From contig CAIKHO010000065.1 in assembly GCA_903827245.1 (NCBI GenBank), positions 1 through 64,000 on the forward strand: DNA of 64,000 bases. Reading direction: 5' to 3'. A program made the translations under genes and the position numbers. This document shows positions 26,773-41,586 of the stretch, in pieces. Below the pieces are notes generated by a model. That model was given only the letters and a program-made list of their open reading frames with translations, had not been told where the DNA came from and searched no databases. Source of the stretch: an uncultured Opitutia bacterium (lineage in GTDB: Bacteria > Verrucomicrobiota > Verrucomicrobiia > Opitutales > Opitutaceae). Every line of letters starts with the position of its first letter. Position 1 is the stretch's first letter.

Positions 26773-28344
26773 ATGCCGACGCTAACCCCGGCGCGGTCGT
26801 CTCAGCTCGTCCGCATCACCGGCGTCGCCGCTGTCGCGTTGTTTCTCCTGCTCGTCGCGCGGTTCTGGCACCCGGTCTACGGCTTCACCCGCTTCCTGCA
26901 GCTGGATGCGTCCAATGACACGGTCAAGATCGCGGCCTTCCAGACGGAGCCGGTCTACGTTTATCGCAACACGGGCGGCTACGACGGCCTTTATTACGCG
27001 CAGATTGCCTATCACCCGGGCCTCGGCGACCCCGAGCTCGCTCCAGCGATGGACAACCTCGCGTACCGCGCCCGGCGCATCCTGCCACCCGCCCTGGCGT
27101 GGCTGTTCGCCGGTGGCCAGACCGCTTGGATTGCGCAGGTTTACTCCCTGCTGAATGTTGCGGCCTGGCTCGCGCTGGCAGTAATGCTCTGGCGGCCGCT
27201 GGCATCAACCGGCCCGCGCGGCCTCATCGCGTGGCTGGGCGTGCTGTTTTCCGCCGGGGCGCTCGGCAGCGTGCGGTTCGCGCTGACCGACCTCGTCGCA
27301 CTTGCGTTCATCTGCGGCGCCCTGCTGGCCGTCGAAAACCGCCGCAGCCGCCTGGCCGTCGGACTGCTCGCCGCGGCCGGGCTCGCGCGCGAGACTTCCC
27401 TGCTCGCCCTTGCCGGGCTCATGGAACCGGCATGGTTTTCCCGCCGTAACCTCGCCCGGGCGCTGTTCGTAGTCACGCCACTGGCGGCCTGGCTGGTTTA
27501 CATTCACTGGCGGGTCGGTGCGGCTGATCCCGGCTGGGGGAATTTTGCCCCGCCCTTCACCGGATTTATGCAGAAGTTGCTGTCCGGTGCGGATACCTCC
27601 CTGCATCCCGATCCCGACCACATGCTCCTCACGTGGGCGTCGTTCCTTGCCACCATTGGACTCGCCGTGCAGGCCGCTTTTATCCTCACACGCTGGCGGC
27701 TGCACGATCCCTGGTGGCGTGCGGGCTTGGCCGCCATCTGCCTGATGGTTTTTCTCGGCACCGCCGTCTGGCATGGTTTTCCCGGCGCGGCCACGCGCGT
27801 GCTGCTGCCGCTCACCCTAGCCTTCAACGTGCTCGCCACGCGTGACCACGCCGCCCCGGCCTGGTTACTCGCGGGCAACTTCGCCGTCTTCAGCGGCCTG
27901 CTCATGCTCCTGGATGTCCATCACGACCCGCGCGAGCTCGCGGCCGCGCGCGTGGCGGGCAGCGGTGTGGTGGTCCGTGCGGGAGACGGTTGGTTCGATG
28001 CGGAACACAGCCTGCGGCACCACTGGACTTGGAGCAGCGGTCACGGGCCGCTGGACATCGAGTCCTGGCCGCACCAGACGCACAGGCTGCGGCTCGAGTT
28101 CAACCTGCGCAGCCTTTCACCCCGCAACGTGACCGTGACACAGAACGGCGTCCTGCTCTGGAGCGGCCGGGCCGGAGTTGAACGTGCGGCAGCCGCGATT
28201 GATTTTCCGCTCGTTGAGGGCCACGCCCGGCTGGAGTTTGCCAGTGACCCTCCCGTTGCGTCCGGCGCCTCGGGCACCGACGCACGGCCGCTTGCGTTTG
28301 CCGTTTACGACCTCCGGGTGACGCTGCCAGAAAGTGAACGATGA
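26773..28344 (+). CDS. Polytopic membrane protein, paralogue of the 23545 gene
   Basis: 523 residues. N-terminal helix, then TGGYDGLYYAQIAYHP and DNLAYRARRILPP in the first outer loop, matching the paralogue at 23545-25224 in position and sequence; LARETSLLALAG matches LGRETNILAAG. About nine hydrophobic segments, then the same soluble C-terminal module (WTWSSGHGPLDIES ... TVTQNGVLLWSG ... DARPLAFAVYDLRVTL). It sits between the ArnT-like gene (6 bases upstream) and a GT4 gene (overlap ATGA), so it belongs to the glycan operon. Candidate GT-C transferase; no direct biochemical clue. Confidence 0.8.
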   Translation: MPTLTPARSSQLVRITGVAAVALFLLLVARFWHPVYGFTRFLQLDASNDTVKIAAFQTEPVYVYRNTGGYDGLYYAQIAYHPGLGDPELAPAMDNLAYRARRILPPALAWLFAGGQTAWIAQVYSLLNVAAWLALAVMLWRPLASTGPRGLIAWLGVLFSAGALGSVRFALTDLVALAFICGALLAVENRRSRLAVGLLAAAGLARETSLLALAGLMEPAWFSRRNLARALFVVTPLAAWLVYIHWRVGAADPGWGNFAPPFTGFMQKLLSGADTSLHPDPDHMLLTWASFLATIGLAVQAAFILTRWRLHDPWWRAGLAAICLMVFLGTAVWHGFPGAATRVLLPLTLAFNVLATRDHAAPAWLLAGNFAVFSGLLMLLDVHHDPRELAAARVAGSGVVVRAGDGWFDAEHSLRHHWTWSSGHGPLDIESWPHQTHRLRLEFNLRSLSPRNVTVTQNGVLLWSGRAGVERAAAAIDFPLVEGHARLEFASDPPVASGASGTDARPLAFAVYDLRVTLPESER

Positions 28345-29540
28345 CGGCGCCCCTGCTTCTCGACCTCACGCACACCAGCCACACGGGGGCCCGCACCGGC
28401 ATCCAACGCGTGACCCGCACCCTGCACGCTGCGCTCGGGTCGCGCGCCATTGCCATTTGTCACGATCCCTACGCCGGCATCTGGCGCGAACTTGAGCGAT
28501 GGGAAAAGGCAAACCTGTCCCTGACCGGTACCGCCGGAGGAAAGCGCGGAGCCCACTGGCCACTCGGCGCCCGGCTCCGCGGCCGCCTACGCCGTTGGCT
28601 CGCCCTTCACCCTTCACCCGCCACCCGTCGCCTGCCAACGGCCGAGGGCCTGCTCGTCCCCGAGGTCTTTTCGCCGGCTGTGGCAGCCGCCCTGCCCGCC
28701 CTCCTCGCTGCAACCGGCGGCCCGCGCGTGGCGCTGTTTCACGACGCCATCGCCCTGAAATTTCCCGAGCTCACTCCCGGCAAAACCGTCGCGCGCTTTC
28801 CCGCCTATCTGCGCCAGTTGCTCTGGTTCGACGGTATCGCGGCCGTTTCCGAGGATTCGCGCCAGTCACTGCTGGACTACTGGCAATGGCTGGGCGTCGC
28901 TGACACTCCTCCGATCGTCGCCATTCCACTGGGCATCGATGTGCCTCGTTCATCGGCGCCGGATACTTTGTCCGGCCGGGATCAACCGCCTGTCATCCTG
29001 AGCGTGGGCAGCATCGAGGGCCGCAAGAACCACCTCGCCCTGCTCGAGGCCAGCGAACAGCTCTGGGCCGCCGGCACCCGGTTCGAACTGCGGTTGATCG
29101 GACTGGCCCAGCCGCAGACCGGCCGCGCCGCGCTCGAACGCCTGCGCGCGCTGCAGGCCGCCGGCCGGCCGTTGCGCTACGACGGGCCGGTGGATGACGT
29201 CGCGCTCGAGGCTGCCTATGCCGGTTGCACGTTCACGGTTTATCCTTCCCTCATCGAGGGCTTCGGCCTGCCGGTGCTCGAAAGTCTCGCCCGGGGCAAA
29301 CCGTGCGTCTGCTCCGCGCACGGCGCACTCGGCGAATCCGCCCGCGGCGGTGGTTGCGTGAACCTCCCGTCGGTCGACTCCGCCAGTCTCGCCGCGGCGA
29401 TGACCCGCCTGCTCGCCAACCCCGCCGAGCGCGCAGCGCTCGCCCTCGCCGCACAGGCCCGGCAGTTCAAGACCACCTCCACCTATGCCGCCGAATTGCT
29501 CGGCTGGATGTCGGGTCTGCCGCGCCGCAACCCGGTTTAG
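28341..29540 (+). CDS. GT4-family glycosyltransferase
   Basis: 399 residues, GT-B fold. N-terminal LLLDLTHTSHTGARTGIQRVTRTL is the glycine-rich acceptor loop; VALFHDAIALKFPELTPGKTVARFP and IAAVSEDSRQSLLDYWQWLGV lie in the first domain; VILSVGSIEGRKNHLALLEA opens the second, with the donor motif YPSLIEGFGLPVLESLARGKPCVCS. Overlaps the preceding gene by four bases. The minus-strand protein at 31000 is a clear paralogue with the same FHDAI and VSE.SR..L motifs, so two related transferases flank the alpha-oxoamine synthase gene. Confidence 0.88.
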   Translation: MTAPLLLDLTHTSHTGARTGIQRVTRTLHAALGSRAIAICHDPYAGIWRELERWEKANLSLTGTAGGKRGAHWPLGARLRGRLRRWLALHPSPATRRLPTAEGLLVPEVFSPAVAAALPALLAATGGPRVALFHDAIALKFPELTPGKTVARFPAYLRQLLWFDGIAAVSEDSRQSLLDYWQWLGVADTPPIVAIPLGIDVPRSSAPDTLSGRDQPPVILSVGSIEGRKNHLALLEASEQLWAAGTRFELRLIGLAQPQTGRAALERLRALQAAGRPLRYDGPVDDVALEAAYAGCTFTVYPSLIEGFGLPVLESLARGKPCVCSAHGALGESARGGGCVNLPSVDSASLAAAMTRLLANPAERAALALAAQARQFKTTSTYAAELLGWMSGLPRRNPV

Positions 29541-29729
29541 CGCTGCTTAGTCAGGGGACAATCGAGTTCGTCCCAGTGCTGAACCATCCCGTTGCCGGCT
29601 GTATCACGGCGCAGTGAGAAATTGCTTCGCGGGTTCGGCTCCGAGGACGCCGGCACCGTGACGGACACCTCGTCTCCCTGCCTTTCCGTTTGCCAAGCTT
29701 CTTCCCCCGCCCTTAGCCTGATCGCTTCC

Positions 29730-30926
29730 ATGGCGTTCTCTCTCTTTACGAAAAGTAAAAGTGCGATTCTGACCCGCTGCCGCGACGACTACGCGACCAA
29801 GATGCGGCACAAATACGCACCGTATTATCATGCCATGGAGGCCCAACAGGGCACCAATATCCGGCTCGATGGGCGCGACATGATCATGCTTTCGAGCAAC
29901 GACTACCTCGGGCTTTCCTTCCATCCCAAGGTCATCGAGGCCGGCCGGGCAGCCATGCTCAAGTGGGGCACCAGCACCACCGGCGCCCGCATCTCGAACG
30001 GCTCCCGGGTCTTTCACCTGGAACTCGAGGAAAAACTCGCCGCCTTCCTCGGCCGAGAGGCCTGCCATGTCCACGCCGCCGGTTATCTCTCCTGCATGTC
30101 GTCCGTCGCGGCGTTTGCGCAGAAGGGCGATGTCATCCTCGCCGACAAGAATCTCCATTCCTGCCTCTGGGACGGCATCCGCCTTTCCCATGCGACGGTC
30201 GAGCGTTTCTCCCACAACAGCCCGGATGACCTCCGTTCTGTCGCCTCCACTCTCAGCGGCTCGACGCCCAAGCTGCTGGTCGTCGAGGGCGTGTACTCCA
30301 TGGAGGGCCACATCTGCCGGCTCCCTGAAATCAGCGAGATCGGCGAGGCGAACGGCTGTTTCACCGTGCTGGACGACGCCCATGGCTTCGGCGTGCTCGG
30401 CCGCCAGGGGCGCGGCACCGTCGACCACTTCGGGCTCAACGACAAGGTCGACCTCATCTGCGGCAGTCTTTCAAAATCACTCGCCAGCACCGGGGGTTTC
30501 GTCGCCGCGTCGAGCGATGTGATCGAATACCTCCGCAGCAATTCGAAGCAGACCATCTTCAGCGCCGCCCTGAGCCCCTGCCAGACGGCCGTCGCGCTCG
30601 CTTCCCTCGAGATCATGCAGACCGAGCCGCAGCACTTGGAGCGCCTCTGGAGCAACACGAGGAAATACCGCGCCATGCTCAAGACGCTCGGCCTCGACGT
30701 CTGGGAGAGCGAGACTCCCGCCGTGCCGATCGTGCTCGGCGCGAAGGAGCGGGTCTATCCGTTCTGGAAGGCGCTGCTCGAAAAAGGCGTCTTCACCGTC
30801 ATGTCGATCGCACCCGCGGTCCCGCCCGGCAAGGATCTCATCCGCACCGCGATCTCCGCGATGCACAGCGAGGAGCAGCTCGAGAAAATCGCCGAGGCCA
30901 TGGCCTATGCGGTGAAGAAGCTCTGA
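29730..30926 (+). CDS. Alpha-oxoamine synthase family PLP enzyme (serine palmitoyltransferase / KBL / BioF type)
   Basis: 398 residues, the family length. It condenses an amino acid with an acyl thioester, losing CO2. Evidence: MIMLSSNDYLGLSFHP near the N terminus, GTSTTGARISNGSRVFH substrate loop, HAAGYLSCMSSVAAF, DDAHGFGVLG (Asp216 contacting the pyridine N, His218) and GSLSKSLASTGGF with the PLP lysine K249. Start ATG 29730; an in-frame extension upstream is not family-like. The family cannot be split reliably by eye into serine palmitoyltransferase, 2-amino-3-ketobutyrate ligase or BioF. The acyl-chain genes 6-10 kb away (SDR, KS, ACP-dehydratase) favour a sphingoid-lipid role; this is inference. 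Confidence 0.85.
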   Translation: MAFSLFTKSKSAILTRCRDDYATKMRHKYAPYYHAMEAQQGTNIRLDGRDMIMLSSNDYLGLSFHPKVIEAGRAAMLKWGTSTTGARISNGSRVFHLELEEKLAAFLGREACHVHAAGYLSCMSSVAAFAQKGDVILADKNLHSCLWDGIRLSHATVERFSHNSPDDLRSVASTLSGSTPKLLVVEGVYSMEGHICRLPEISEIGEANGCFTVLDDAHGFGVLGRQGRGTVDHFGLNDKVDLICGSLSKSLASTGGFVAASSDVIEYLRSNSKQTIFSAALSPCQTAVALASLEIMQTEPQHLERLWSNTRKYRAMLKTLGLDVWESETPAVPIVLGAKERVYPFWKALLEKGVFTVMSIAPAVPPGKDLIRTAISAMHSEEQLEKIAEAMAYAVKKL

Positions 30927-30999: not shown

Positions 31000-32037
31000 T
31001 CAGGCCAGCGCGGCGCGCAGCACCTGCGCGGCTTCGGCCCATGTCGGCAGTGGCCGCGTGAGCGCCTCGACCCCGAGGCGCACGTGCAGGGTTTCATCCG
31101 TCAGCACCCGCCTGAGCGCCACCGCCCACGCCGCCGTGTCACCGGGCGCCACGGGCAGGCAGCCGCCGAAGTCGGCATTCTCGCGCAGCACCGGCAGGTC
31201 GCTGCACACACAGGGCACGCCCATCCAAAGCGACTCCAGCAGCGGCAAACCGCAGCCCTCCGCGATCGTCGGGAAAACCGAGGCCCGCGCCTTCGCGTAC
31301 AACTCCAGGACCTTCCCGTCATCCGCCGCCTCGTGGTAATGCAGCCCGCGGCGGGCCGGGCGCAGCGCCTTTATTCCCGCGATCACCGGTGCGCCGAAAT
31401 GCGGGTTCACCCGGCCGACAATATGAAGGTCAAACGCGAGGCCTTCCCCCCATAGCTGGTCACAGACCTCGAGCAGGAACAGCTGGTTCTTCCGCGGTTC
31501 AAGAATCCCCACGCAAAGGAGGCTTGCGGCGAGAGGCGACAGGCGCGAGGTGACGCGCGGCCCACCGCTGAAATCGGCGCCGAGCGCAAATACATCGACT
31601 CGCGGGGGCCTTTCCACGCCCTGCCACTGCCAGAATCCCACCAAGTCCTTTCGACTGGACTCCGAGACCGCCCAGACCCGGTCAAAGCCGGCCAGAAGCT
31701 TCATATAGGACGGGTGCCGCGCGACGCTCTGCGGCCAGGTGATGTCCGGGTGCCTCAGCGGAATCGCGTCATGGAAAATCGCCGCAATCCGGCATCGTCT
31801 CGTCCGCAGAAATTCGCTGAACCCCGGACGCTCGTCCTCCGAAAAGAGTTCCGCCGTCAAGATCCAGTCATTCGGTGCGGGCATGACCGGGACTCCCTGC
31901 TTCAGCTCCCGCCAGCCTTCGTCCCAGCGAACCAAGGCGGCCGCCGTCCCGAGTTCCTCCGCCAGCCGCGCATTGACCCGGGTCAGTCCCGAGCGATGCC
32001 CCGCCTTGCCGGACTTCGTGACGTCAAGGTAGATCAT
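31000..32037 (-). CDS. GT4-family glycosyltransferase, paralogue of the 28341 gene
   Basis: 345 residues from ATG 32037 (MIYLDVTKSGKAGHRSGLTRV), which places the glycine-rich loop at the N terminus as in the paralogue; an upstream in-frame extension crosses a palindrome and is not used. AAIFHDAIPLRHPDIT and VWAVSESSRKDLVGFWQWQGV align with the 28341 protein; CVGILEPRKNQLFLLEVC and FPTIAEGCGLPLLESLWMGVPCVCSDL give the second domain and donor site. Convergent with the alpha-oxoamine synthase gene, 73 bases between stops. Confidence 0.85.
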   Translation of the reverse strand: MIYLDVTKSGKAGHRSGLTRVNARLAEELGTAAALVRWDEGWRELKQGVPVMPAPNDWILTAELFSEDERPGFSEFLRTRRCRIAAIFHDAIPLRHPDITWPQSVARHPSYMKLLAGFDRVWAVSESSRKDLVGFWQWQGVERPPRVDVFALGADFSGGPRVTSRLSPLAASLLCVGILEPRKNQLFLLEVCDQLWGEGLAFDLHIVGRVNPHFGAPVIAGIKALRPARRGLHYHEAADDGKVLELYAKARASVFPTIAEGCGLPLLESLWMGVPCVCSDLPVLRENADFGGCLPVAPGDTAAWAVALRRVLTDETLHVRLGVEALTRPLPTWAEAAQVLRAALA

Positions 32038-32046
32038 GCCGGAGGG

Positions 32047-32159
32047 AGGAGATTTGGAAAATCGATCGCGGAACCACGGAGAGACGAAAGCGCGGAAATA
32101 TTCGGCCAAGAATCAGGGTTCGCGGTCTTTCCGCCCTTTCGCGCTTTCGCGATCCTCCT
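32047..32159. repeat. Low-complexity imperfect palindrome
   Basis: Left words such as ATCGATCGCGGAA and ACGAAAGCGCGGAAA are mirrored on the right by CTTTCCGCCCTTTCGCGC and TTTCGCGATCCTCCT. It fills the gap between two minus-strand glycosyltransferase genes, directly upstream of the 31000 gene. Confidence 0.6.
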
Positions 32160-32184
32160 GAGTCGGAAAAATTGCCCGTTGGTT

Positions 32185-33420
32185 TCATCCATTGCCCGGG
32201 TTCCTTTCGCGTTCGCCGATCGTGGCCCGGAACAGTGTTAGCAGGCGTGCCGCATTGTCGTGGGCATTATAATTTTCCTCCACCCACTTGCGCGCCTCCC
32301 TCCGCATCCGCTCGGCGCCCGTGTCATTCACGGCGAGATTTTTCAACGCTTCCACCCACGCCGCGGGCGCGTCGACTGGCGCCACGATGCCCGAGACGCC
32401 ATCCGTGACCGCTTCCGTTGTCGCCGCCGCAGGTGAGGTCACGACCAGTACGCCGACGCACATCGCCTCCGGAATCACGTTCGGCAGGCCGTCCCGGTCT
32501 CCGCTTGGCGCCACCACGCCCGTGTGCAGCAGGACGTCCGCCCACGCGAGCTGGTTCCAGACCTCATGGTTCGGCAGGTGGCCGGTGAAGGTCACGCTGG
32601 CCGCGATGCCGAGTTGCCCGGCCAGACGTTCCAGCTCGGCCCGCAGCGGACCCTCGCCCACGATCCGGGCCTCAAACGGCAGCCCGGCCGCGCGCAGCGC
32701 CGCGTGGATGCGCAGCTGGTGGCGCAGTCCTTTCTTCTCCACCAGCCGGGCCACCGCCACGAGCCGCAGCGGTTCACGCGAGGGACGCAGCCGCTTGAGG
32801 GGCGGCAGCCGGTCGAGCCCGCGGCGGATGCAGTGGATGCGTTCCGCCGGCAGGCCGAACCCGATGAGCGAGCGACGGCCCATCTCCGTCGAGGTGTGAA
32901 TGAAGGCCGCGTGCTCGAGTTTCTCCCGCAGCCACCAGTCGCCACCATGCTCGTAGAGGTCGTAGGCGTGCGCCGCCGCGCTGTAGCGGTGGCCATCGAG
33001 GCGCCACAGCATCCACGCCGCGGTGGCCGGCGCCCCGCCCCAGGCCGCGTGGACCAGCGCGGGGGGATCCTGGCGGAACTGCCCCGCGTACAAGCACGCA
33101 AAACCCGCGCCCAGCATGTTCTCCCAGAAGTTCAGCCAGGACGGTGCCGGGCGCGTGCACAGCCCGTGCAGCACCTGCCGCAGGACCTCCGGACGCCGCC
33201 ATGCTTCATACGGGATCATCCAGGGCAGGGTGAGCAGTTTCCACTTGGGGAAACGCGTGACGGACAGTCCCCGGAAGGTGCCACCTCCGCCCCACAGCGA
33301 ATACAGCCGGAGCCCGATCTCCTGGGCCTGCATCGCGACAATCTCGCGCTGGAGAAACGTCTCCGTGTTCTTGGGAAACGTGGTGAACAGGTAGGCGACG
33401 ACGGGCTTGGAGTCAGGCAA
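32185..33420 (-). CDS. GT4-family glycosyltransferase (colanic-acid WcaL-like)
   Basis: 411 residues. YLFTTFPKNTETFLQREI at the N terminus is the acceptor loop typical of WcaL/AmsK-like transferases; AHAYDLYEHGGDWWLREKL and IHTSTEMGRRSLIGFGL sit in the middle, then LRLVAVARLVEKKGLRHQLRI, ARIVGEGPLRAELERLAGQLG and the donor motif GDRDGLPNVIPEAMCVGVLVVTS. Minus strand, 147 bases after the 31000 gene's start side, separated by a palindrome. Cytoplasmic addition of a sugar to a lipid-linked glycan is likely; the sugar is unknown. Confidence 0.88.
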   Translation of the reverse strand: MPDSKPVVAYLFTTFPKNTETFLQREIVAMQAQEIGLRLYSLWGGGGTFRGLSVTRFPKWKLLTLPWMIPYEAWRRPEVLRQVLHGLCTRPAPSWLNFWENMLGAGFACLYAGQFRQDPPALVHAAWGGAPATAAWMLWRLDGHRYSAAAHAYDLYEHGGDWWLREKLEHAAFIHTSTEMGRRSLIGFGLPAERIHCIRRGLDRLPPLKRLRPSREPLRLVAVARLVEKKGLRHQLRIHAALRAAGLPFEARIVGEGPLRAELERLAGQLGIAASVTFTGHLPNHEVWNQLAWADVLLHTGVVAPSGDRDGLPNVIPEAMCVGVLVVTSPAAATTEAVTDGVSGIVAPVDAPAAWVEALKNLAVNDTGAERMRREARKWVEENYNAHDNAARLLTLFRATIGERERNPGNG

Positions 33421-33569
33421 GGTGCCGCAAGCTAGAAGGCTCCCGGCCCCGCGGCCAAGCGGATAAGGCTGATGTCGCCGGCTGCGTTTCCTCCTCGTGT
33501 CCCATGTACCGGTTTGGGGTCGTTTTTAGGAATTGGAACCCGGCGCAGTTGGTCTTTGATCCTTCCCGG

Positions 33570-34061
33570 ATGAAAACCTCGGTAGCCCTCATGGGTGCGA
33601 CGGCGGCCCTTTTTCTCGCCGGGTGCGCTGCTTCCCCGGGCGGCGATCCGCTTCAGGTCGAGCGCATCAACCAGATCATGCGGGCGCCCGCGCGCGTCGA
33701 AAACGAGACCCCGGAGCAGCAGGCCACGCGCGGGGCCCGCGAACAGGCGTTCGGGCAAAAGATCGGCCTGCTTTCCGTGAAGGACACCTATGAGCCCCCG
33801 CGGCTTGTCCGGATTGTTGCGCCGGTCAATCCCCCGGGGGCGGCCGAGGCCGGGAAATCGGGCCAGGTCAGCGTGGGCGTGGGCGTGATCATCGATCCCG
33901 CCGGCCGCATCCAGGACGCGAGGGTCATTTCCTCCACCGATCCGGTCTTCGAGGCCGCGGCCCTTGCCGCCGTGAAACAGTGGCGGTTCACCCCGGGGCG
34001 CAGGAACGGCCAGTTGATCAGCATGAGCTTCATCTTCCCCGTGGATTTCCCGGCCCCCTGA
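33570..34061 (+). CDS. Lipoprotein with TonB C-terminal domain
   Basis: 163 residues from ATG 33570, chosen because it gives a lipoprotein signal (MKTSVALMG... LFLAGC, Cys19) where the upstream in-frame start does not. After a Gln/Glu-rich linker, residues 80-160 match the TonB-type energy-transducer fold: VRIVAPVNPP, GQVSVGVGVIIDPAGRIQDARVISSTDPVFEAAALAAVKQWRFTPG. Unlike true TonB there is no N-terminal membrane helix, proline-rich spacer or ExbB/ExbD partner nearby, so it is a TonB-domain lipoprotein, a common envelope type of unclear role. The stop codon's last base begins a palindromic repeat. Confidence 0.8.
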   Translation: MKTSVALMGATAALFLAGCAASPGGDPLQVERINQIMRAPARVENETPEQQATRGAREQAFGQKIGLLSVKDTYEPPRLVRIVAPVNPPGAAEAGKSGQVSVGVGVIIDPAGRIQDARVISSTDPVFEAAALAAVKQWRFTPGRRNGQLISMSFIFPVDFPAP

Positions 34062-34176: not shown

Positions 34177-34351
34177 AGTCCAACTGAGTCCGAACAGCTG
34201 ACTCCAGGCGGGAAATGGGGGCGTTCGGCGGTATTTCCCGCACGCATCTCCGGGCTCCCGACTTCAGCTACACGAATTCGCCTTAATTCCCGCAATTTTA
34301 CACTCGCCCCGCCCTGCCATGCCGGGGACCCTTGGCCTTTGCTGTTTTGAA

Positions 34352-35068
34352 ATGAATTTCTATCGCCGCAGCGACCTGCAGCCCAAAAACCTCGAACTTC
34401 TCGCCCGATATGACCGGGAAATTCTCCGCCTGCTCGGCTCCGACTACGCCTACCCCGTGCGCATGCGCGACTGGGAGCTTTGCCAGGTGCTGCAGGCCAT
34501 GGAGTCCGTGCCCGCCGCCGCTCGTATTCTCGATACCGGGGCCTTCAACACCTACCTGGGCCTCTATCTAAGCGGGACCCACCGCAACATCACCGTCTCC
34601 GACCTCCTGTGGACGCGGGCACGCAAAAGCCTCCAGCGCCGCCTTGGGCTCGCGCCCTTCAAGCCGACCGAGGCCGGTTACCTGACGTGGTACCGGGCCA
34701 TGCGCCGGCACGGACTGAAGGTCACCAATCTCGACCTCACCCGCATCGGTTATCCGGACCGCGCCTTCGACTGCATCGTGTCCCTGTCCGTCATCGAACA
34801 CATCCCCGCCGTCGAACAGGCGCTCGCGGAGATGTACCGCGTGCTCGCCCCGGGAGGAAAGCTGCTCGTCACCACCGATTGCTCACGCGAACCTCACCCG
34901 TTCGCGAAGGGCGTGCGCTATTTCAGCACGGGCGAACTGGACCGCCTTTTTGCCGGTTATCCGGTGACCTCGCCGCGCAACCAGCCCGACTTCGCCCCCG
35001 AAAACTGGTGCTACGGCGGCAAGCTCCCGGTCGTCACGTGCTTCATCGAAATCACGAAGCCGCGCTGA
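34352..35068 (+). CDS. Class I SAM-dependent methyltransferase
   Basis: 238 residues from ATG 34352 (MNFYRRSDLQPKNLELL); ATG 34319 is an alternative adding 11 residues. RILDTGAFNTYLGLYL replaces a canonical glycine-rich motif I, FDCIVSLSVIEHIPAVEQAL is motif III and YRVLAPGGKLLVTTDCSRE motif IV of the Methyltransf_11/23 group; the C terminus has NWCYGGKLPVVTCFIEI. The motif I glycines are partly missing (DTGAFNTY instead of D.GxGxG), so SAM binding may be altered. Closes the glycan region; convergent with the MGDG-synthase-like gene. Confidence 0.78.
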   Translation: MNFYRRSDLQPKNLELLARYDREILRLLGSDYAYPVRMRDWELCQVLQAMESVPAAARILDTGAFNTYLGLYLSGTHRNITVSDLLWTRARKSLQRRLGLAPFKPTEAGYLTWYRAMRRHGLKVTNLDLTRIGYPDRAFDCIVSLSVIEHIPAVEQALAEMYRVLAPGGKLLVTTDCSREPHPFAKGVRYFSTGELDRLFAGYPVTSPRNQPDFAPENWCYGGKLPVVTCFIEITKPR

Positions 35069-35105: not shown

Positions 35106-36305
35106 TCACTCCGGCGGAAACGGATGGTAGGTCAGGTCGGCCCTGGCGGTTTCGTTGGCGAGGGCGACGACCTCCTTGATCAGGATCGTCGGGTCCTCCT
35201 CATAGCGGAGCTTGAGGAAATTCTCGCGCACGTGCTGGTAGGCGGCCGGATCGGCCATCCACGTGTCGATGAGGTGGGCGAAGTCGGACGGGTCCTCAAT
35301 CTTCTCCGAGGCGGCACCGTTGCGGAAAAATTTCCAGGTCAGCTCCTCCTGCGGCATGATGCCGCCGAACGCATTGAAGATGATCGGGCACCGGAAATGC
35401 AGCGCCTTGGCACAGGTGGTCGTGCCGCCGCGCGTGACGATTGCGTCGCTCACCTGGATCAGCAGATGGACAATCTCGGAGAATCCCTCCACGTAGCAGT
35501 CGAGTTCGGGATGATTGGCGCGCCAATGGACGAGGTCATTGTACGCCTGCTTGTTGCGGCCGCAGATGACGATGGCCTGGACCCGGCCGGCGTGCTTGAC
35601 GAGCGCGGGCAGGAGATCGAAGTGGTTGTTCGCGCCATTGCCCCCCGTGGCGAGGAAGACGGTGAACCGGTCGGGGTCCAGGCCCAGCCGCTTGCTGAGA
35701 AAGACCCGGCGGTCCACCGGGCTCAGCACCTCGAGATGCGCGCGCGGCGGCATGAGGGAGCCGCGCACGCGGGTTTTTTCGATCGGAATGCCTTTCTTGA
35801 CGGCGTAATCGCGCGCCGTGGGCGTTCGCGAAAAGTAGAGGTCCACGCTCGGCTCGATCCAGTTGCGCGAATAGCCCCAGCCACCGGAAAACTCGCCGCA
35901 ATAGGTGGCGCAACGCACTTGGTCGGCGCCCAGCGTCTCGCGCGCGAGCTGGAAGTAGCCGCGATTGAGGCAGTCGTGGACGCTGAAGATGAAGTGGGGC
36001 TTGTACTCGCGGAGGACCTCAAGGTAATAGCCGGCGCCGAAGGTGACGCGGCGGGTGTTGAGGAAGCTGAGAATCTCGACGACGGAGTAGAACCAGATGT
36101 GGACCCAGGGCGCAGCCTTCTGGATGCGGTTGTAGAAGTTCACCCCGGCGCGGTTCACCACCGAGGATTTTTCCAGCATCTGCTCGATACGCACGTCCAC
36201 CTCGTGCCGGTAAAGCTGGAAGCACCACTCCGCAAAGGCCTCGGCGCGGGCATCGTGGCCGGCGCCGGTGCTGGAGGTCAGGACGAGGATTCGAACCTTG
36301 GACAT
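35106..36305 (-). CDS. MGDG-synthase-like family 28 glycosyltransferase
   Basis: 399 residues. ILVLTSSTGAGHDARAEAF is the MGDG_synth (PF06925) start; KPHFIFSVHDCLNRGYF fits the acceptor domain; FTVFLATGGNGANNHFDLLPAL and VTRGGTTTCAKALHFRCPIIFN form the GT28-type UDP-sugar site. The family makes glycosyl-diacylglycerols (MGDG, glucosyl-DAG) or related lipids at the membrane surface. Here it is the last gene of a minus-strand lipid set (ACP-dehydratase, KS, SDR), so it may glycosylate the lipid those enzymes make. Start ATG 36305, 54 bases after the SDR stop. Confidence 0.85.
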   Translation of the reverse strand: MSKVRILVLTSSTGAGHDARAEAFAEWCFQLYRHEVDVRIEQMLEKSSVVNRAGVNFYNRIQKAAPWVHIWFYSVVEILSFLNTRRVTFGAGYYLEVLREYKPHFIFSVHDCLNRGYFQLARETLGADQVRCATYCGEFSGGWGYSRNWIEPSVDLYFSRTPTARDYAVKKGIPIEKTRVRGSLMPPRAHLEVLSPVDRRVFLSKRLGLDPDRFTVFLATGGNGANNHFDLLPALVKHAGRVQAIVICGRNKQAYNDLVHWRANHPELDCYVEGFSEIVHLLIQVSDAIVTRGGTTTCAKALHFRCPIIFNAFGGIMPQEELTWKFFRNGAASEKIEDPSDFAHLIDTWMADPAAYQHVRENFLKLRYEEDPTILIKEVVALANETARADLTYHPFPPE

Positions 36306-36359
36306 GCGGCTATTTCACGCCGTGGCTTGCGCCCGCAGGCAGGTTCCGGCCGGAGGTCG

Positions 36360-37193
36360 TCATAGTCCGAAATACCGGGCCGTCGTCGCCCGCACCAGCG
36401 AAGCCGGGGCCAGGCGGGCGAGCAATGGCGCCAGCCGCGCCTGGAAAAATGAGCCGGACCGCACCACCCCGCTCCGCCGGCGCCGGAGCGCCCGGCGCAG
36501 GTCGGCCGCGGCCCGCACGGGCAGCGGCGCAGCCTCCAGGTTGGACTCAAGGGCCAGCCAGGCCCGCGCCAGGCGTGGGTCGGCAGCGGGCGCCGCGGTG
36601 GTGGTTTGCATGGCTTGGTTGAAGGCGGTGCGGTAGTCGCCCGGCCGGAAGTCGATGACCGTGACACCCGTGCCGCGGGTTTCAAAGATCAAACTTTCGC
36701 TCAGCGCGGAAAGGCCGGCCTTCGCCATGTTGTAGCCGCTCATGAAGGGCAGGGGAAACTCCACCGCCAGCGAGGCCACGTGCACGAGACAGCCGCGGTC
36801 CTTCGCCCGCATGCCGCGGAGCGCAGTCTGACTGAGCCGGGCCGTCGTGAGGAGCATGGCCTCAAGCTGGGCCTGCCAGACCGCGAAATCGGTGGCGGTG
36901 AATTCACCGAAGGCACCGTAACCCGCGTTCTGGACCACGAGGTCAAAGGCGCCGCCTGCAGCCACGGCAGCGTGGTCGAGCGCGCTTCCGGCCGCGGCGG
37001 CGTCTGCCAGATCCAGGCCCACCGCAGTAAATGCCGGGTTCGCCGCCAGCGAGGCCAAGCGGGACGGATCCCGTGCCGTGCCCCAGACCCGCACCCCCTC
37101 GGCCAGCAGCATCGCGGAGAACGCGCGTCCCAGGCCCGCACTCGCGCCGGTCACGAACGCCGTGGGGTAAAGGTCGGAGACACGCGGGTTCAT
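36360..37193 (-). CDS. Short-chain dehydrogenase/reductase (ketoreductase type)
   Basis: 277 residues from ATG 37193 (MNPRVSDLYPTAF), which places TAFVTGASAGLGRAF near the N terminus. Classical SDR: the NAG motif in VVQNAGYG, Ser in VHVASLAVE 13 residues before the Tyr of SGYNMAKAGL (Y-N-M-A-K), and IDFRPGDYRTAF after it. The extended C terminus after residue 200 resembles SDRs acting on lipids (3-ketosphinganine or 3-ketoacyl reductases). Between the KS and MGDG-synthase-like genes on the same strand (43 and 54 base gaps), so it likely supplies the beta-keto reduction step. Confidence 0.83.
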   Translation of the reverse strand: MNPRVSDLYPTAFVTGASAGLGRAFSAMLLAEGVRVWGTARDPSRLASLAANPAFTAVGLDLADAAAAGSALDHAAVAAGGAFDLVVQNAGYGAFGEFTATDFAVWQAQLEAMLLTTARLSQTALRGMRAKDRGCLVHVASLAVEFPLPFMSGYNMAKAGLSALSESLIFETRGTGVTVIDFRPGDYRTAFNQAMQTTTAAPAADPRLARAWLALESNLEAAPLPVRAAADLRRALRRRRSGVVRSGSFFQARLAPLLARLAPASLVRATTARYFGL

Positions 37194-37236
37194 GCAGAGG
37201 TCGGGCTGCAGCGCGGGCCGGACGGTACGGGCGCAA

Positions 37237-38496
37237 TCATGCCTTGTTGAAGACGAGGCAGACGTTCGCGCCGCCAAATCCGCTCACGTTGTTGAGCACG
37301 ACGTTCGGCCGGGCGGGCAGGGTCGAGCGAATGATGTTCAGGCCCTCGCAGGCCGGATCGAGCGTCGTGATGTGCGCGGAGCCGGGCATGAAGCCCTCGC
37401 GGATGGCCAGGGCGCAGAAACCGCTCTCCATCGCACCCGCCAGCGAGAGGCCGTGACCGGTGAGCGCCTTGGTGCTGCTGATGGCCGGGCGGGAGGCGGG
37501 AGTCTTGAAGACGGCCTTGAGCGCCTTCGCCTCCGAGCTGTCGCCGATAGGCGTGGAAGTCGCGTGGGCATTGACGTAATCGACCTCCTCGGCCGATGTG
37601 CCGGTGGCCCGGAGCGCATTCTCGATCGCAGCCTGCAGGCCGTGCCCCTCCGGGTGGGAGATGGCGACGTTGTACCCGTCGGATGCCTGGCCCCAGCCGG
37701 CAACCTCGCAGTAAACCTTCGCCCCGCGGCGCTCAACCTCATCGCCGGTCTCGAGCACGAGCACCACCGCGCCGCCGGTACCGACGAAGCCGTCGCGCGC
37801 CGAGTCGAAGGGACGCGAGGCAAGATCAGGGTCGGTCTGCAGCGACAGGGCGCGCATGCCGGCAAACGGCAGGATCGCGTCGACATTGCCGTCCTCGGCC
37901 CCGACCACGAACATGCGCTTCTGGCGGCCCAGCACGAGTTCATCGTAGGCAAAACCGAGCGCATGCGACGACGACGCACAGGCCGACGAGAAACCGCACG
38001 AGGCGCCCTTGATCCTGAAGTGCGCCACCAGGTTGAAATTCAGCGTGCCGGAGATCGAGGCCACGATGCCCAAGGGCGAGCATTTCATCACACCCTGCGC
38101 GTGCATGCGCTGCAACATGTGGCCCATCAGATGGGGCGATCCGCCCGAGGCCGCGTAGAGGCCGGTGTCGCGGTTGGAGATATCGGCCTCGGAGAGCCCC
38201 GCATCCGCGACCGCCTGCTGCATGGCGCACCATGCATAGACCCCATGCGGCGCCATCCCGCGCAGAATCTCGCGCCTCATCCGGTAGGGCGCGGGAAATG
38301 TCCAGTCCTCAGCATCGGTCGATTCCATCGAAAATCCACGGACGGGAGCGGCGACCTTGACCGGAATCTCGGGCTTCTGGAACGGCGGATAGAGTTCAAA
38401 GCCGTGCCGCAGCTCGCGGAGGCTCTCGATCACGCCCGCCGCATCGTTGCCGATGCTGGTGATGAAGCCGAGTCCGGTAATATAAACTTTGGGCAT
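37237..38496 (-). CDS. Beta-ketoacyl-ACP synthase (KAS II/FabF-like)
   Basis: 419 residues from ATG 38496 (MPKVYITGLGF); a TTG 15 bases upstream is unlikely. The thiolase-fold triad is intact: Cys173 in SACASSSHA, His311 in NAHATSTPIGD and His348 in LTGHGLSLAGAME, so it is a condensing enzyme rather than a chain-length factor. It differs from housekeeping FabF in details such as a short N-terminal insertion (HGFELYPPFQKPE). Adjacent SDR and ACP-dehydratase genes indicate a dedicated acyl-chain pathway. The 255 bases upstream to the ACP gene hold no gene and may contain its own promoter. Confidence 0.88.
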   Translation of the reverse strand: MPKVYITGLGFITSIGNDAAGVIESLRELRHGFELYPPFQKPEIPVKVAAPVRGFSMESTDAEDWTFPAPYRMRREILRGMAPHGVYAWCAMQQAVADAGLSEADISNRDTGLYAASGGSPHLMGHMLQRMHAQGVMKCSPLGIVASISGTLNFNLVAHFRIKGASCGFSSACASSSHALGFAYDELVLGRQKRMFVVGAEDGNVDAILPFAGMRALSLQTDPDLASRPFDSARDGFVGTGGAVVLVLETGDEVERRGAKVYCEVAGWGQASDGYNVAISHPEGHGLQAAIENALRATGTSAEEVDYVNAHATSTPIGDSSEAKALKAVFKTPASRPAISSTKALTGHGLSLAGAMESGFCALAIREGFMPGSAHITTLDPACEGLNIIRSTLPARPNVVLNNVSGFGGANVCLVFNKA

Positions 38497-38751
38497 GCGA
38501 AAGATAGACAACGCAACCGGCCCGGCCGGCCGGCGGCGCGTGCCGACGCGTCAGGTTTTCAACTTCTTACATGTCGCCAAATTCGCATCGGTCAACGCAG
38601 GAGGTGTCCCGGTTTATGGATGCGTTCGAATCTGGCCGGATGGAACGCACTGGTCTCAACGCGTTCCGCTTTTGCTCAGACTTTCCGCCAACCTATATAC
38701 GGGTAAAACCACGGGCCACCAGATGGCCGAGCGGCACAGGCGACCGGCCAT

Positions 38752-39726
38752 TCAGGCATTAATGGCGGCGCGCAGCGGGATGGGCGCAACGGCCTCCGCC
38801 CCTTTGAGCCCGGCATGCTCGCTGCCGTTGACCACGGGAGCCACCACGGCCTCGGCATAACCGAACGTCAGCGTAATTTCCTCGGCGATCACGGCTTTTT
38901 CCTGGCCGACGCGAATCGTGCCCTCGAAGGTGGCAAGCGGCATTTTCATGCGTTTCGGCTTGATCGAGAGCGTCAGGATGTCGCCGGGCCGGCAAATCCG
39001 GTGGGCGCGCACCCCCTCGCAGCCCGTGAAGAAAATAGTGGAAGGACTCACCACCCGGCCGGGCTCGGCGAGCGGACCATCGAGCAGGAACAGGACACCG
39101 AGCTGGCCGAGCGCCTCGAGCATGATCGACGCGGGCATCACCGGGTTGTCCTTGAAGTGGCCCTGCAAGAAAAATTCCTGGCCGGTGATCTTGTATTTCG
39201 CATTGGCGCCGCTGGAGCTGACCGAGGCCTCGTTGATGAACAGGAACGGCGGCTGGATCGGCATGATCGCGGCGATCTGCTCGATGGGAAGAAACTTGGT
39301 CGGCTTGGGCAGCGAGAGCCCGCGCACCTTGCAATCGATGAAGGTCTTCACGTCGCCCACCGTGCGGAGGTTGCGCAATTCATCGTTGTTGATCGACATC
39401 TGGAGCACGTCCTCCACGAGGATGACGATTTCCATCATCGTGAGCGAGTCGATGCCGAGATCCTCGATGAGGCGCAGGTCGTCATCGGCGTCCTTGAGCT
39501 TGGTGCGGAGGTCGGGTTCGACGAAGCGCTCGATCACACCGATGACCACGGCGGGCAAGTGCTCGGGATTGCCCGTTTTGCGAAATTGAATGGCCGCCTC
39601 AAAGGTCGACGGGGAACAACGTTTCAACGCCTCGCGCAGGGGGGCCTCGTCTTCCGGCGCAAATGCCTTTGGTGAAGCCGGATGGGGCTTGTCGTTACCC
39701 GAACCGGGTTGAATTGCGTCTGCCAT
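38752..39726 (-). CDS. Acyl carrier protein fused to FabZ/FabA-like dehydratase
   Basis: 324 residues. Residues 55-135 are an ACP with phosphopantetheine Ser94 in EDLGIDSLTMMEI. Residues 145-310 are a hot-dog dehydratase: QGHFKDNPVMPASIMLEALGQ with His190 and Glu204 as catalytic pair, and a FTGCEGVRAHRICRPGD strand. The Glu retained (FabZ-like) argues for dehydration rather than a degenerate domain. Start ATG 39726 is set by an AAGGAA ribosome site six bases upstream; an ATG at 39747 is possible. The tethered ACP-DH would act with the downstream KS and SDR. Confidence 0.87.
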   Translation of the reverse strand: MADAIQPGSGNDKPHPASPKAFAPEDEAPLREALKRCSPSTFEAAIQFRKTGNPEHLPAVVIGVIERFVEPDLRTKLKDADDDLRLIEDLGIDSLTMMEIVILVEDVLQMSINNDELRNLRTVGDVKTFIDCKVRGLSLPKPTKFLPIEQIAAIMPIQPPFLFINEASVSSSGANAKYKITGQEFFLQGHFKDNPVMPASIMLEALGQLGVLFLLDGPLAEPGRVVSPSTIFFTGCEGVRAHRICRPGDILTLSIKPKRMKMPLATFEGTIRVGQEKAVIAEEITLTFGYAEAVVAPVVNGSEHAGLKGAEAVAPIPLRAAINA

Positions 39727-39738: not shown

Positions 39739-40001
39739 GTAAGCCATCGGGGATTTGCTTGTAAACGCATTTCTTTCCTCGCGGAAGCTAACTGCATGGT
39801 GCGTGCGAACGTTAATTATTGCAGATTGTATGCCACCGTCAGCCAGTGGAGCTCTTGGTTCCCCCCCGGTTTTAAAGGTGTTTCAAAAAAGCAGCATTGA
39901 CGGGAACTGCGCCGTGCCGCCCCGTTCCATCGCCAGCCTTGCCACCCATCCCCCGATCCACCACGGTGCCCGCCGTTCCCGGTGCTTCCGTTCCAACGCG
40001 C

Positions 40002-41159
40002 ATGCGCGCTTCCGCCGCCACCTCGCAATCCGTCTTCCTGATCACCCACGAGTTTTTTCCAAAACGCGGCGGCATTGCCACGTTCACGGAAGAGATCGCG
40101 AAGGCTTCCGCCAGCCTCGGGTATGATGTCGAGGTCTGGGCCCAGTCCGCCTCCCCGGCCGTCGAAAAGAACTGGCCGTTCCGTCTGCGGCGCCTGCCGC
40201 TAAAGGGCTCCCATGATCTCATGTGCCAGTTCCTCCTGGCCTGGCAGCTTGTCCGGGAACGGCGCCGGCTGCGCTATGCCACGGTCTACCTCCCGGAGCC
40301 CGGGCCTATGCTCGCGATGATGCTGCTGCAATTTTTCCAGGCCTTCCGCCCGCACCGGCTCGTGCTCACCTTCCATGGCTCCGAGATCCTCCGTTTCGCC
40401 CGGAACCCCTTCACCCGCTGGCATACCCGCCGTCTCATCCGCCGCGCCACCCGCATCAGCACGCTTTCCCGCTACACCCAGGACCTGCTCTGCACCCATT
40501 TCCCCGAGGCCGCCGGAAAAACCTTCCTCACGCCCGGCGCGCTGCGGGCCGACTTCGCGGTCGTGCCGATGGCTCCGGCCACCCGCCGCGAAAAGATCAT
40601 CATCCTCACCGTCGGCCGGCTGCACCCGCGCAAGGGCCAGCTTCCGGCCCTGCAGGCCCTGGCGGCCCTCGCGCCGGAATTCCGCCACTTGATCGAGTAC
40701 TGGCTCGTCGGCAGCCAGAGCAAGGAGAACTACGAAAAGACGCTTCGCGCCGCCGCCGCCGAAACCGATTTTCCCGTGCGGTTTTTCGGCGACGTGCCCG
40801 ATAACGAGCTCAGCCAGATCTACGACCGCGCGGACATCTTCGCGATGACCAGCATCAACCATGGCGACAGCATCGAAGGCTTCGGTCTCGTTTACCTTGA
40901 GGCCGCGGCCCACGGCCTGCCGGTGGTCGCCCATACCGTCGGCGGTGTCGGCGAGGCCGTCGCCGACGGGGTCACCGGCCTGCTCGTGCCTCCACACCGC
41001 CCGGCCCAGCTCACGGCGGCTTTTGAAAAACTCATCACCGACGCCCCGCTCCGCCAGCGGCTGGGCAAGGCCGGCCGCGCCTGGGCCAGCCGCAATTGCT
41101 GGAAGCAGTCGGCCAACGCGCTCTTCAGCCCGCGCGAGGCACCGGCCGCCAGTCGTTGA
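40002..41159 (+). CDS. GT4-family glycosyltransferase
   Basis: 385 residues from ATG 40002; the upstream in-frame TTG extension is proline-rich and non-homologous. LITHEFFPKRGGIATFTEEIAKA is the GT4 acceptor loop; LVLTFHGSEILRFARN, ISTLSRYTQDLL, IIILTVGRLHPRKGQLPAL and VRFFGDVPDNEL follow in order, and SIEGFGLVYLEAAAHGLPVVAHTVGGVGEAV is the donor-site E-x7-E motif. Related to PimB/phosphatidylinositol mannosyltransferase-like proteins. It is divergent from the acyl-chain operon and 22 bases before a thioesterase gene, so it may glycosylate a lipid. Confidence 0.88.
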   Translation: MRASAATSQSVFLITHEFFPKRGGIATFTEEIAKASASLGYDVEVWAQSASPAVEKNWPFRLRRLPLKGSHDLMCQFLLAWQLVRERRRLRYATVYLPEPGPMLAMMLLQFFQAFRPHRLVLTFHGSEILRFARNPFTRWHTRRLIRRATRISTLSRYTQDLLCTHFPEAAGKTFLTPGALRADFAVVPMAPATRREKIIILTVGRLHPRKGQLPALQALAALAPEFRHLIEYWLVGSQSKENYEKTLRAAAAETDFPVRFFGDVPDNELSQIYDRADIFAMTSINHGDSIEGFGLVYLEAAAHGLPVVAHTVGGVGEAVADGVTGLLVPPHRPAQLTAAFEKLITDAPLRQRLGKAGRAWASRNCWKQSANALFSPREAPAASR

Positions 41160-41181: not shown

Positions 41182-41586
41182 ATGTTGCAATCGCGCGCGC
41201 TCGTCACGGTCCGTTACGCCGAGACCGACATGATGGGCATCGTCTATCACGGCAGCTACCTCCCGTGGTTCGAGATCGGCCGCACCACGCTGCTCAAGGA
41301 AATCGGCCTGCCTTACCGCCAGCTCGAGGCCGACGGCTTCCGGCTCCCGGTGCTCGAGGTCTCCGCCAAATACCTGCGTCCCGCCGTGTATGACGATGCC
41401 CTCACCATCGTCACGACGATGAGGGAAAAGCCGCTGCTCCGCATCCGGCTCGAATACGAGGTGAAGCGTGGCGACGAACTGCTCGCCACCGGCCAGTCCC
41501 TCCACGCCTTCGTCGACCTGAAGGGTAAGCCCGTGCGGCCGCCCCCGGGTCTGGTCGCCAAGATGAACGCGGTCTTCGGCGGGTAA
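41182..41586 (+). CDS. YbgC/FadM-like acyl-CoA (acyl-ACP) thioesterase
   Basis: 134 residues, normal for the 4-hydroxybenzoyl-CoA thioesterase hot-dog family. VRYAETDMMGIVYHGSYLPWFEIGR carries the catalytic Asp and the 'G.VyH..Y' loop. The C terminus GQSLHAFVDLKGKPVRPP is typical. It would hydrolyse an acyl thioester in the cytoplasm. Co-directional with the GT4 gene 22 bases upstream and next to the KS/ACP-dehydratase cluster, so release of the specialised acyl chain is a possible role; a housekeeping Tol-Pal-associated YbgC role is less likely because no tol genes are nearby. Confidence 0.85.
   Translation: MLQSRALVTVRYAETDMMGIVYHGSYLPWFEIGRTTLLKEIGLPYRQLEADGFRLPVLEVSAKYLRPAVYDDALTIVTTMREKPLLRIRLEYEVKRGDELLATGQSLHAFVDLKGKPVRPPPGLVAKMNAVFGG

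Follow-up and report, generated by a model that had tools for sequence, protein, structure and literature searches.

A fatty-acid gene row and a serine-palmitoyltransferase-like gene in Opitutales: a putative acyl-chain module for a glycosylated sphingolipid

The window, a 64,000-nucleotide stretch of contig CAIKHO010000065.1 from an uncultured Opitutia bacterium, contains a short row of fatty-acid genes with glycosyltransferase partners, which raises the question of what acyl chain the row makes and for which lipid. Many related bacteria carry both this fatty-acid set and a serine palmitoyltransferase (SPT), a pairing that suggests that the tail of an unusual glycosphingolipid is made by this set. 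We favor, with a probability of about 0.6, a reading in which the row is a dedicated module that supplies and tailors the acyl chain of a glycosylated Opitutae sphingolipid. Verrucomicrobiota sphingolipids have hardly been described. Among titles and abstract openings in the open-access literature, no paper on an SPT-linked acyl module in Opitutales was found, and no title among the matches listed concerned Opitutaceae sphingolipids. Spt-like genes have been counted in 22 Black Sea Verrucomicrobiota MAGs, according to PMC11334938.

The gene row and its neighbors

The earlier note described a minus-strand row encoding an ACP-FabZ fusion, a ketosynthase (KS), a short-chain dehydrogenase (SDR) and an MGDG-type glycosyltransferase, and all four are present as intact minus-strand ORFs. 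The row is longer than first described, with two further minus-strand GT4 genes (31000-33420). The features are as follows.

28341..29540, plus strand: GT4 glycosyltransferase preceding the SPT-like gene (Pfam; adjoins the SPT-like gene elsewhere)
29592..30926, plus strand: SPT-like alpha-oxoamine synthase (tree, models, motif, residues)
31000..32109, minus strand: second GT4 glycosyltransferase (Pfam; match in 47/80 loci, many of them incomplete, and GT4 paralogues may cross-match)
32185..33420, minus strand: GT4 glycosyltransferase (Pfam; related genes in loci from many of the order's families)
35106..36305, minus strand: MGDG/diglucosyl-diacylglycerol-synthase-type glycosyltransferase (near-cut-off Pfam, model and PDB matches)
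36360..37193, minus strand, ATG start: classical SDR, Tyr-x3-Lys (Pfam adh_short, catalytic residues)
37237..38496, minus strand: FabB-like beta-ketoacyl-ACP synthase, KS (Pfam, PDB matches, tree, C-H-K-H residues)
38752..39726, minus strand: fusion of an ACP to a FabZ-type dehydratase, the ACP being preceded by a helical stretch (Pfam PP-binding and FabA-like, conserved residues, AlphaFold model)
39897..41159, plus strand: divergent GT4 glycosyltransferase, constant neighbor (Pfam; 79/80 loci)
41182..41586, plus strand: 4HBT (YbgC/FadM-type) thioesterase, constant neighbor (Pfam 4HBT_2, matching residues 117-234 in the frame opening at 40861; TIGR00051 over cut-off; 78/80 loci)

The FabA-like, PP-binding and adh_short families and both ketoacyl-synthase domains score over the Pfam cut-offs. 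The open frame of the SDR reaches 37277, beyond the ATG at 37193, and relatives of the SPT-like protein start at about 29730, versus the frame start at 29592. An alpha-oxoamine synthase does lie nearby, as had been proposed, but not at the proposed distance of 6 kb: the gene ends 4.2 kb from the MGDG-type glycosyltransferase gene and 7.8 kb from the fusion.

Eighty named contigs, some of them cut by contig ends within a flank of about 8 kb, were fetched via the fusion, which is therefore always there; the KS is present in 76, the MGDG-type glycosyltransferase in 71 and the divergent GT4 in 79. Of 71 loci, 23 have no SDR in the gap between KS and glycosyltransferase. Where the flank left room for SPT (53 loci), it was found in 29, a lower bound, given that the flank barely reaches that far. 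The commonest glycosyltransferase adjoining either SPT or the fusion is the GT4 at 32185..33420. The counterpart of the GT4 at 28341..29540 adjoins the SPT-like gene in loci such as L043, L048 and L053, and this GT4 probably belongs to the cluster.

Properties of the encoded proteins

The catalytic residues, including those that the earlier note called intact, are constant among the selected relatives, counted with the window's own sequence: Cys, His, Lys and His of the KS in 39/39 rows, the ACP Ser and dehydratase His and Glu in 35/35 fusion rows, and Ser, Tyr and Lys of the SDR in 19/19. The earlier numbering fits a KS start at 38496 and a fusion start at 39726; in the longer frames used here, Cys173/His311/His348 of the KS become C178/H316/H353, and Ser94/His190/Glu204 of the fusion become S101/H197/E211.

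The best PDB matches of the KS are KAS I enzymes, and in a tree of 22 of the 39 KS rows (the genome's own KS at C30 being left out) it groups with two FabB sequences with support of 99/96, the tree containing a single FabF from elsewhere. Its score falls below the NCBIfam FabB cut-off (316 vs 630), so it is described only as FabB-like.

The dehydratase half of the fusion scores 68 bits against FabZ and 24 bits against FabA models, and stays under the NCBIfam FabZ cut-offs (68 vs 113, 61 vs 155). An AlphaFold model (mean pLDDT 84.7) predicts a FabZ-type fold with His and Glu, and its PDB structural matches are FabZ-type throughout among the matches listed (best 50 of 1501). The FabA isomerase has Asp where FabZ has Glu; here that Asp is absent, with Glu at the position in 35/35 rows, which is still compatible with a FabN-type activity. 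In one comparison 31 of the 35 rows were kept. The fusion was also considered as a widespread domain pair and rejected as such, since only 49 of 387 phylum genomes match it (E 1e-25), all within the order except three that share its class. Among plasmid records, none covers 80% of the fusion, and the fusion is missing from a genome of the same genus (G002, 98% complete).

The SDR, which scores 85.8 bits against the KdsR model (cut-off 400), is a candidate ketoacyl-ACP or 3-ketosphinganine reductase. The glycosyltransferase at 35106-36305 falls just below two Pfam cut-offs (MGDG_synth, 24.1 vs 25; Glyco_tran_28_C, 21.2 vs 22), scores 90 bits against a diglucosyl-DAG synthase model with a cut-off of 500, and matches a PDB MGDG synthase at 1.6e-15. 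Four of its columns were inspected, two of which are constant (25/25) and two variable (19/25, 16/25).

The SPT-like protein is the sole alpha-oxoamine synthase found in the genome. Its best PDB match is the Sphingobacterium SPT (321 bits, the next enzyme scoring 247), and it carries the motif GSLSKSLASTGGFVA, versus GTFSKSLASLGGFVA in that enzyme; Sphingomonas-type SPT chains score under a BioF/KBL-type chain (234 vs 247). In a tree of 24 of 36 rows, the 24 SPT-like relatives form one clade with the solved Sphingobacterium SPT, apart from KBL, BioF and HemA (99/98); this tree holds one solved SPT and no Sphingomonas-type SPT, and its HemA and BioF sequences sit on long branches. K295, H189 and H264 are constant in 36/36 rows and D262 in 35/36, which we take to be the PLP lysine, the stacking His and the catalytic Asp/His. 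The SPT models score below their curated cut-offs (383 vs 640, 340 vs 500), and the first of these, an NCBIfam value, makes the protein SPT-like and places it outside that equivalog. The tree, the models and the motif all give an SPT-like enzyme, predicted to condense L-serine with a long acyl thioester. A BioF role in biotin synthesis was considered and rejected on the tree, the motif and the lack of a BioB match over cut-off (30.6 vs 225 bits, in a search that succeeds in 7/14 control genomes); with a single alpha-oxoamine synthase in the genome, a biotin role is unlikely.

Elsewhere in the genome, three FabF, one FabG and one FabZ score over cut-off, which rules out the row as its sole fatty-acid set and the four genes as its only FabF/FabG/FabZ, a refuting condition of the earlier note. 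A 50-residue ACP fragment beside one FabF is under the cut-offs (57 vs 71), and the FabZ is a possible LpxC fusion whose longer frame contained a stop. The absence of an enoyl reductase, asserted previously, is correct for the operon. Elsewhere in the genome there is a FabI-like gene (C27), although every FabI model listed falls under its cut-off, so that enoyl reduction may still take place. Two fatty-acid desaturase matches are over cut-off.

Co-occurrence and linkage across the order

Across 273 genomes from the order, both SPT and ACP/DH (fused or split) are present in 105, SPT alone in 8, ACP/DH alone in 31 and neither in 129, uncorrected for kinship. ACP/DH and KS are both present in 126, alone in 10 and 13, and absent from 124, likewise uncorrected. 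SPT-positive genomes have a match of at least 300 bits, plus one 68%-identical fragment (G246), a weaker group (about 205-233 bits) being scored as non-SPT; ACP/DH-positive genomes match the fusion or either half at E 1e-25. The KS threshold of E 1e-90 admits paralogous copies, and therefore KS co-occurrence may be inflated.

Linkage was assessed in SPT-positive genomes whose gene positions were listed, leaving aside the genome of the window, namely 104 of the 105 for SPT and fusion, and 94 of the 126 with both fusion and KS. The fusion lies within 12.5 kb of SPT in 49/104 genomes, with about 2 expected, in 8 families (tallied by eye), and adjoins the KS in 62/94. The KS is elsewhere in 22 of those 49 genomes and SPT is elsewhere in 40 of the 62, so that the fusion bridges SPT and KS. 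A chance neighborhood of the four genes, set beforehand as a refutation, is ruled out by the co-occurrence and the 80-contig survey.

In 42 hand-chosen loci, the clusters recurring in at least 3 families around the module genes, among the 40 largest, include SPT, glycosyltransferases, KS, ACP/DH and SDR; a further set comprised 57 hand-chosen loci. Two loci (L214 and L215) have an ACP-KS-SDR-GT4-SPT row plus an MGDG-type glycosyltransferase, with no dehydratase match in either row. In another (L213), SPT, GT4, MGDG-type glycosyltransferase and SDR are together, and KS and fusion lie on a different contig. No N-acyltransferase was recognized among these recurrent clusters, and a GNAT gene adjoining a Rubrobacter SPT relative, used as a single query with no positive control, has no match in this genome. 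One PF13480/FemAB-like gene sits at C33.

The module also occurs without SPT. At E 1e-60, no SPT match was found in any of the 18 genomes of family f16 carrying the module, where a DH-KS pair adjoins a waaA-like gene, nor in G056 (family f21, 100% complete), which has the fusion, KS, MGDG-type glycosyltransferase and GT4 in a row; its congener G169 does have one. SPT is also missing from four g54 genomes of family f20. These cases indicate a further use of the module, either now or in the past.

Possible pathway, alternatives and known systems

A specialized glycolipid or sphingolipid-like product, as first suggested, fits both the SPT-like assignment and the co-occurrence, and we infer the following pathway, its product included. 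The FabB-like KS would remove an acyl chain from the housekeeping ACP and join it to malonate carried by the private ACP, a condensation that would both load this ACP and extend the chain. Reduction by a ketoreductase, either the SDR or FabG, and dehydration by the tethered FabZ domain would then give a trans-2-enoyl-ACP, which either goes on to a housekeeping reductase or is used unreduced. From serine or a similar amino acid and the private acyl-ACP, the SPT-like enzyme would form a 3-keto long-chain base, which the SDR or another reductase may convert to the alcohol, and the MGDG-type and GT4 enzymes would attach sugars. Weighing against this reading are the module-bearing genomes without SPT, the sighting of SPT in no more than 29 of the 53 roomy loci, the loci that lack the SDR, the SPT-model scores under cut-off, the BioF/KBL-type chain that outscores the Sphingomonas-type SPT chains, and the lack of the fusion in G002; nor was a ceramide synthase found or, among the recurrent clusters, an N-acyltransferase recognized. 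As a tentative extension, rather doubtful at present, the trans-2-enoyl-ACP may pass unreduced from the ACP-tied dehydratase to SPT, so that the fatty-acid machinery would set the sphingosine 4,5-trans double bond with neither oxygen nor a desaturase; the rows of L214 and L215 would then give a 5-hydroxylated base. If true, this would be an independent oxygen-free route to sphingosine-type glycolipids.

It is unlikely that the row instead serves anaerobic unsaturated-fatty-acid synthesis in the manner of fabA-fabB or fabN-fabO, in which the dehydratase would isomerize and the KS elongate the cis-enoyl chain, with the SPT link reflecting a lipid-gene neighborhood. The grouping of the KS with FabB, the same order of functions in fabA-fabB-fabI of S. 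meliloti and the retention of DH and KS without SPT in f16 are consistent with it. However, the dehydratase is FabZ-like by models and structure, the gene in third place encodes a classical SDR with Tyr-x3-Lys, unlike FabI, and the genome has its two desaturase matches; SPT co-occurrence and the private ACP would also go unexplained.

Rhizobia make a special lipid A/LPS acyl chain with an AcpXL-FabZ-FabF cluster, and private ACPs are typical of such clusters. A special chain destined for lipid A/LPS or a different outer-membrane glycolipid, used only secondarily by SPT, would account for the private ACP here and for the waaA-like gene that follows DH-KS in 7/7 f16 loci with enough flank (by Pfam in L137, by eye in the other six), and a heptosyltransferase-family (GT9) gene recurs nearby in 4 loci of 3 families (Pfam in L202). 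This reading is nevertheless improbable: no Lpx-type acyltransferase was recognized among the recurrent clusters, part of which were scanned, and outside f16 the commonest partners are SPT and the GT4 and MGDG-type glycosyltransferases. Synthesis of polyenes or aryl-polyene-type products through iterated KS-KR-DH cycles with no reduction step, an idea that goes back in its polyene form to the earlier note and is suggested by an operon holding only KS, SDR, DH and ACP, is very hard to sustain, given a single FabB-like KS, no chain-length factor, second KS or second ACP recognized among the recurrent clusters, and no dehydratase match in L214 and L215.

The row has partial counterparts among known systems. 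The FabA-FabB-FabI operon of S. meliloti pSymB shares a dehydratase adjoining a FabB-type KS, whereas here the dehydratase is FabZ-type and fused to an ACP, the SDR is classical, and the partners are glycosyltransferases and SPT. We know of no fatty-acid module beside SPT in Bacteroidota. The Bacteroidota-type SPT (Sphingobacterium, PDB 8guh/3a2b) is the closest solved SPT by sequence and tree, and the enzyme here is closer to it than to the rhodobacterial starting enzyme. Rhodobacterial SPTs favor an acyl chain on a special ACP, and the Caulobacter/rhodobacterial system of SPT, AcpR and AasR likewise ties SPT genetically to a private ACP, as described in PMC9386255. In contrast to that system with its AasR, an acyl-ACP synthetase, no acyl-ACP synthetase was recognized among the recurrent clusters, and KS, SDR and a dehydratase fused to the ACP are found instead; the row has a classical SDR in place of the NDUFA9-like CerR described in PMC11087976. 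Pseudomonas MYb115 SgaAB also employs a carbon-chain assembly machine for sphingolipids, in that case a polyketide synthase cluster, according to PMC12134224, versus separate type II proteins here. If the sphingolipid reading is right, it names candidate genes for Opitutae lipids, makes chain modification ahead of base formation testable, and adds a second means of loading the private ACP that serves SPT, with a ketosynthase replacing the acyl-ACP synthetase.

Genes of the row and their predicted activities

The four-gene row claimed by the earlier note (ACP-FabZ-type fusion, ketosynthase, short-chain reductase and glycosyltransferase) is real and its genes are intact. The window sits on a 98.6 kb contig of a 3.55 Mb genome (91 contigs, 97% complete).

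Genes of the row and its surroundings in the window
29592-30926, convergent with the minus-strand row, serine-palmitoyltransferase (SPT)-like alpha-oxoamine synthase
31000-32109, minus, GT4 glycosyltransferase, downstream in the same row
32185-33420, minus, GT4 glycosyltransferase, downstream in the same row
33504-34061, plus, TonB-C protein, among the row genes
34319-35068, plus, methyltransferase, among the row genes
35106-36305, minus, MGDG-type glycosyltransferase
36360-37193, minus, short-chain reductase (SDR), preferred start
37237-38496, minus, ketosynthase (KS)
38752-39726, minus, ACP-FabZ fusion
39897-41159, divergent from the row, GT4 glycosyltransferase
41182-41586, divergent from the row, 4HBT thioesterase

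The shorter SDR start is preferred, as the longer frame would run into the KS gene. The KS clusters with FabB, away from the genome's own FabFs (support 99/96). The predicted model of the fusion matches FabZ structures (all 50 listed of 1501 matches) and places three helices, residues 31-75, ahead of the ACP; the dehydratase His and Glu are constant across aligned relatives. Tyr-x3-Lys is found in 19 of 19 SDR rows, and on this family feature we take the SDR to be a ketone reductase, not a FabI-type enoyl reductase.

The earlier note had raised the possibility that these are the genome's only fatty-acid genes; FabF, FabG and FabZ were in fact all detected over cut-off elsewhere. There are seven KS places, including that in the window; of the remaining six, three score above the FabF cut-off (630, 516 and 524 versus 494 bits), and one FabG and one FabZ score above theirs. 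A 50-residue ACP fragment falls under cut-off, and a FabI-like candidate on contig C27 fails to reach the cut-off of any FabI model among the matches listed. That candidate belongs to a second fatty-acid-like row (L153:11554-18739), together with a divergent KS on a very long branch of the KS tree, an FAD amine-oxidase-type protein, a FabZ-like dehydratase, a KAS III-type protein and a hydrolase assigned by eye. In related genomes, second KS copies with 57-58% identity to the window KS (G008:C9, G006:C1, G017:C3, G035:C11) adjoin further ACP matches, which suggests paralogous ACP-KS pairs.

The SPT-like synthase and its association with the module

Models, solved chains, a lysine motif and a tree all indicate that the oxoamine synthase is SPT-like in sequence. 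The top NCBIfam models are two for SPT (383 and 340 bits) and BioF (325), all under cut-off. The closest solved chain is the Sphingobacterium SPT (321 bits), whose lysine motif is similar, followed by a BioF/KBL-type chain (247) and a Sphingomonas-type SPT (234). The 24 oxoamine synthase rows in the tree form a single clade, which is placed with the Sphingobacterium SPT and proteins from Rubrobacter and Phocaeicola massiliensis, separate from KBL, BioF and HemA (99/98). The Rubrobacter gene adjoins a GNAT and an epimerase-type reductase, the kinds of enzyme to which bCerS and CerR belong. With this GNAT as query, a search run without a positive control gave no match in the window's genome. A Black Sea survey reports Spt-like genes also without bCerS and CerR nearby, and its authors considered replacement by other proteins (PMC11334938).

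Fusion homologues carry labels such as Opitutaceae bacterium, Opitutus sp. and uncultured Opitutae. In a search of 37 family genomes, the window's own among them, the fusion matched at E <1e-80 in 34 (in G001 it is cut by a contig end) and as separate ACP and dehydratase halves in G007. It was absent from G002, which is 98% complete and belongs to the window's genus, and from G013 (67%). Fused or split forms (ACP/DH) occur in 49 of 387 genomes of the phylum, 46 within the order and three elsewhere in the class.

Among 273 genomes of the order, 113 are positive for SPT, 136 for ACP/DH and 139 for KS; 105 have both SPT and ACP/DH, eight SPT only, 31 ACP/DH only and 129 neither (Fisher p 9e-37, uncorrected for kinship). 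Three SPT-only genomes are at most 72% complete and three (G090, G092, G234) have another form of the row. The ACP/DH-only genomes include 18 from family f16 and four from genus g54 of family f20, and the 100% complete G056 has the row without SPT. SPT lies within 12.5 kb of the fusion in 49 of 104 genomes, from eight families (KS elsewhere in 22), and KS within 2.5 kb of the fusion in 62 of 94 (SPT elsewhere in 40).

A set of 80 named loci has flanks of about 8 kb. In 53 of them the flank on the side where SPT would lie measures 7.8 kb or more; among these, SPT is present in 29 and the GT4 of 32185 in 39. In 42 chosen neighbourhoods, SPT, ACP/DH, GT4, KS, MGDG-type glycosyltransferase and SDR clusters span at least three families, and five further clusters, including a heptosyltransferase-family gene, recur in three to six loci. 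The cluster is flanked in 58 of the 80 loci by a gene for the epoxyqueuosine reductase QueG, at 41642-42805 in the window; beyond it lie a transglutaminase-type gene (43574-44611) and a DUF2126 putative amidoligase (44625-46790).

Variant rows

Two loci (L214 and L215) combine a lone ACP, KS, SDR, GT4 and SPT in a single row, accompanied by an MGDG-type glycosyltransferase, a class III aminotransferase and an approximately 265-residue protein (the last two at L214:428-2442 and L215:7225-10234). This row gave no dehydratase match, and the rest of these genomes could still hold one. The 265-residue protein, which has no Pfam match, is a candidate for the missing N-acyltransferase solely by its position. 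L249 has SPT, GT4, SDR and KS.

In f16, dehydratase and KS precede a waaA-like gene in all seven loci with enough flank (L137, L230, L231, L232, L234, L235, L236); an eighth, L233, is cut off by a contig end, and in G051 the ACP is located elsewhere. This row of an SPT-less family is the strongest evidence against a module serving sphingolipids alone, and its conservation points to a possible connection of the KS with LPS.

Proposed charging of a private ACP by elongation

The core of the proposed explanation, acyl supply for a glycosylated sphingolipid, is that the KS would elongate a housekeeping acyl chain onto the private ACP and so charge it. If the resulting trans-2-enoyl chain were reduced before SPT acts, a plain dihydrosphingosine-type base would be formed; on a bolder reading, SPT would use it unreduced, yielding a sphingosine-type base.

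All enzyme kinds of the module are already known, and no SPT-bound type II module was found in open-access literature by title or abstract start, among the matches listed; any novelty would therefore lie in the combination with SPT. In Rhodobacteria, SPT is described as having a private ACP onto which a dedicated acyl-ACP synthetase loads the chain (PMC9386255), and no synthetase of that kind was recognised among the recurrent clusters of the 42 neighbourhoods. The two systems would thus share a private ACP for SPT and differ in its charging, by an acyl-ACP synthetase in Rhodobacteria and, as proposed here, by a KS.
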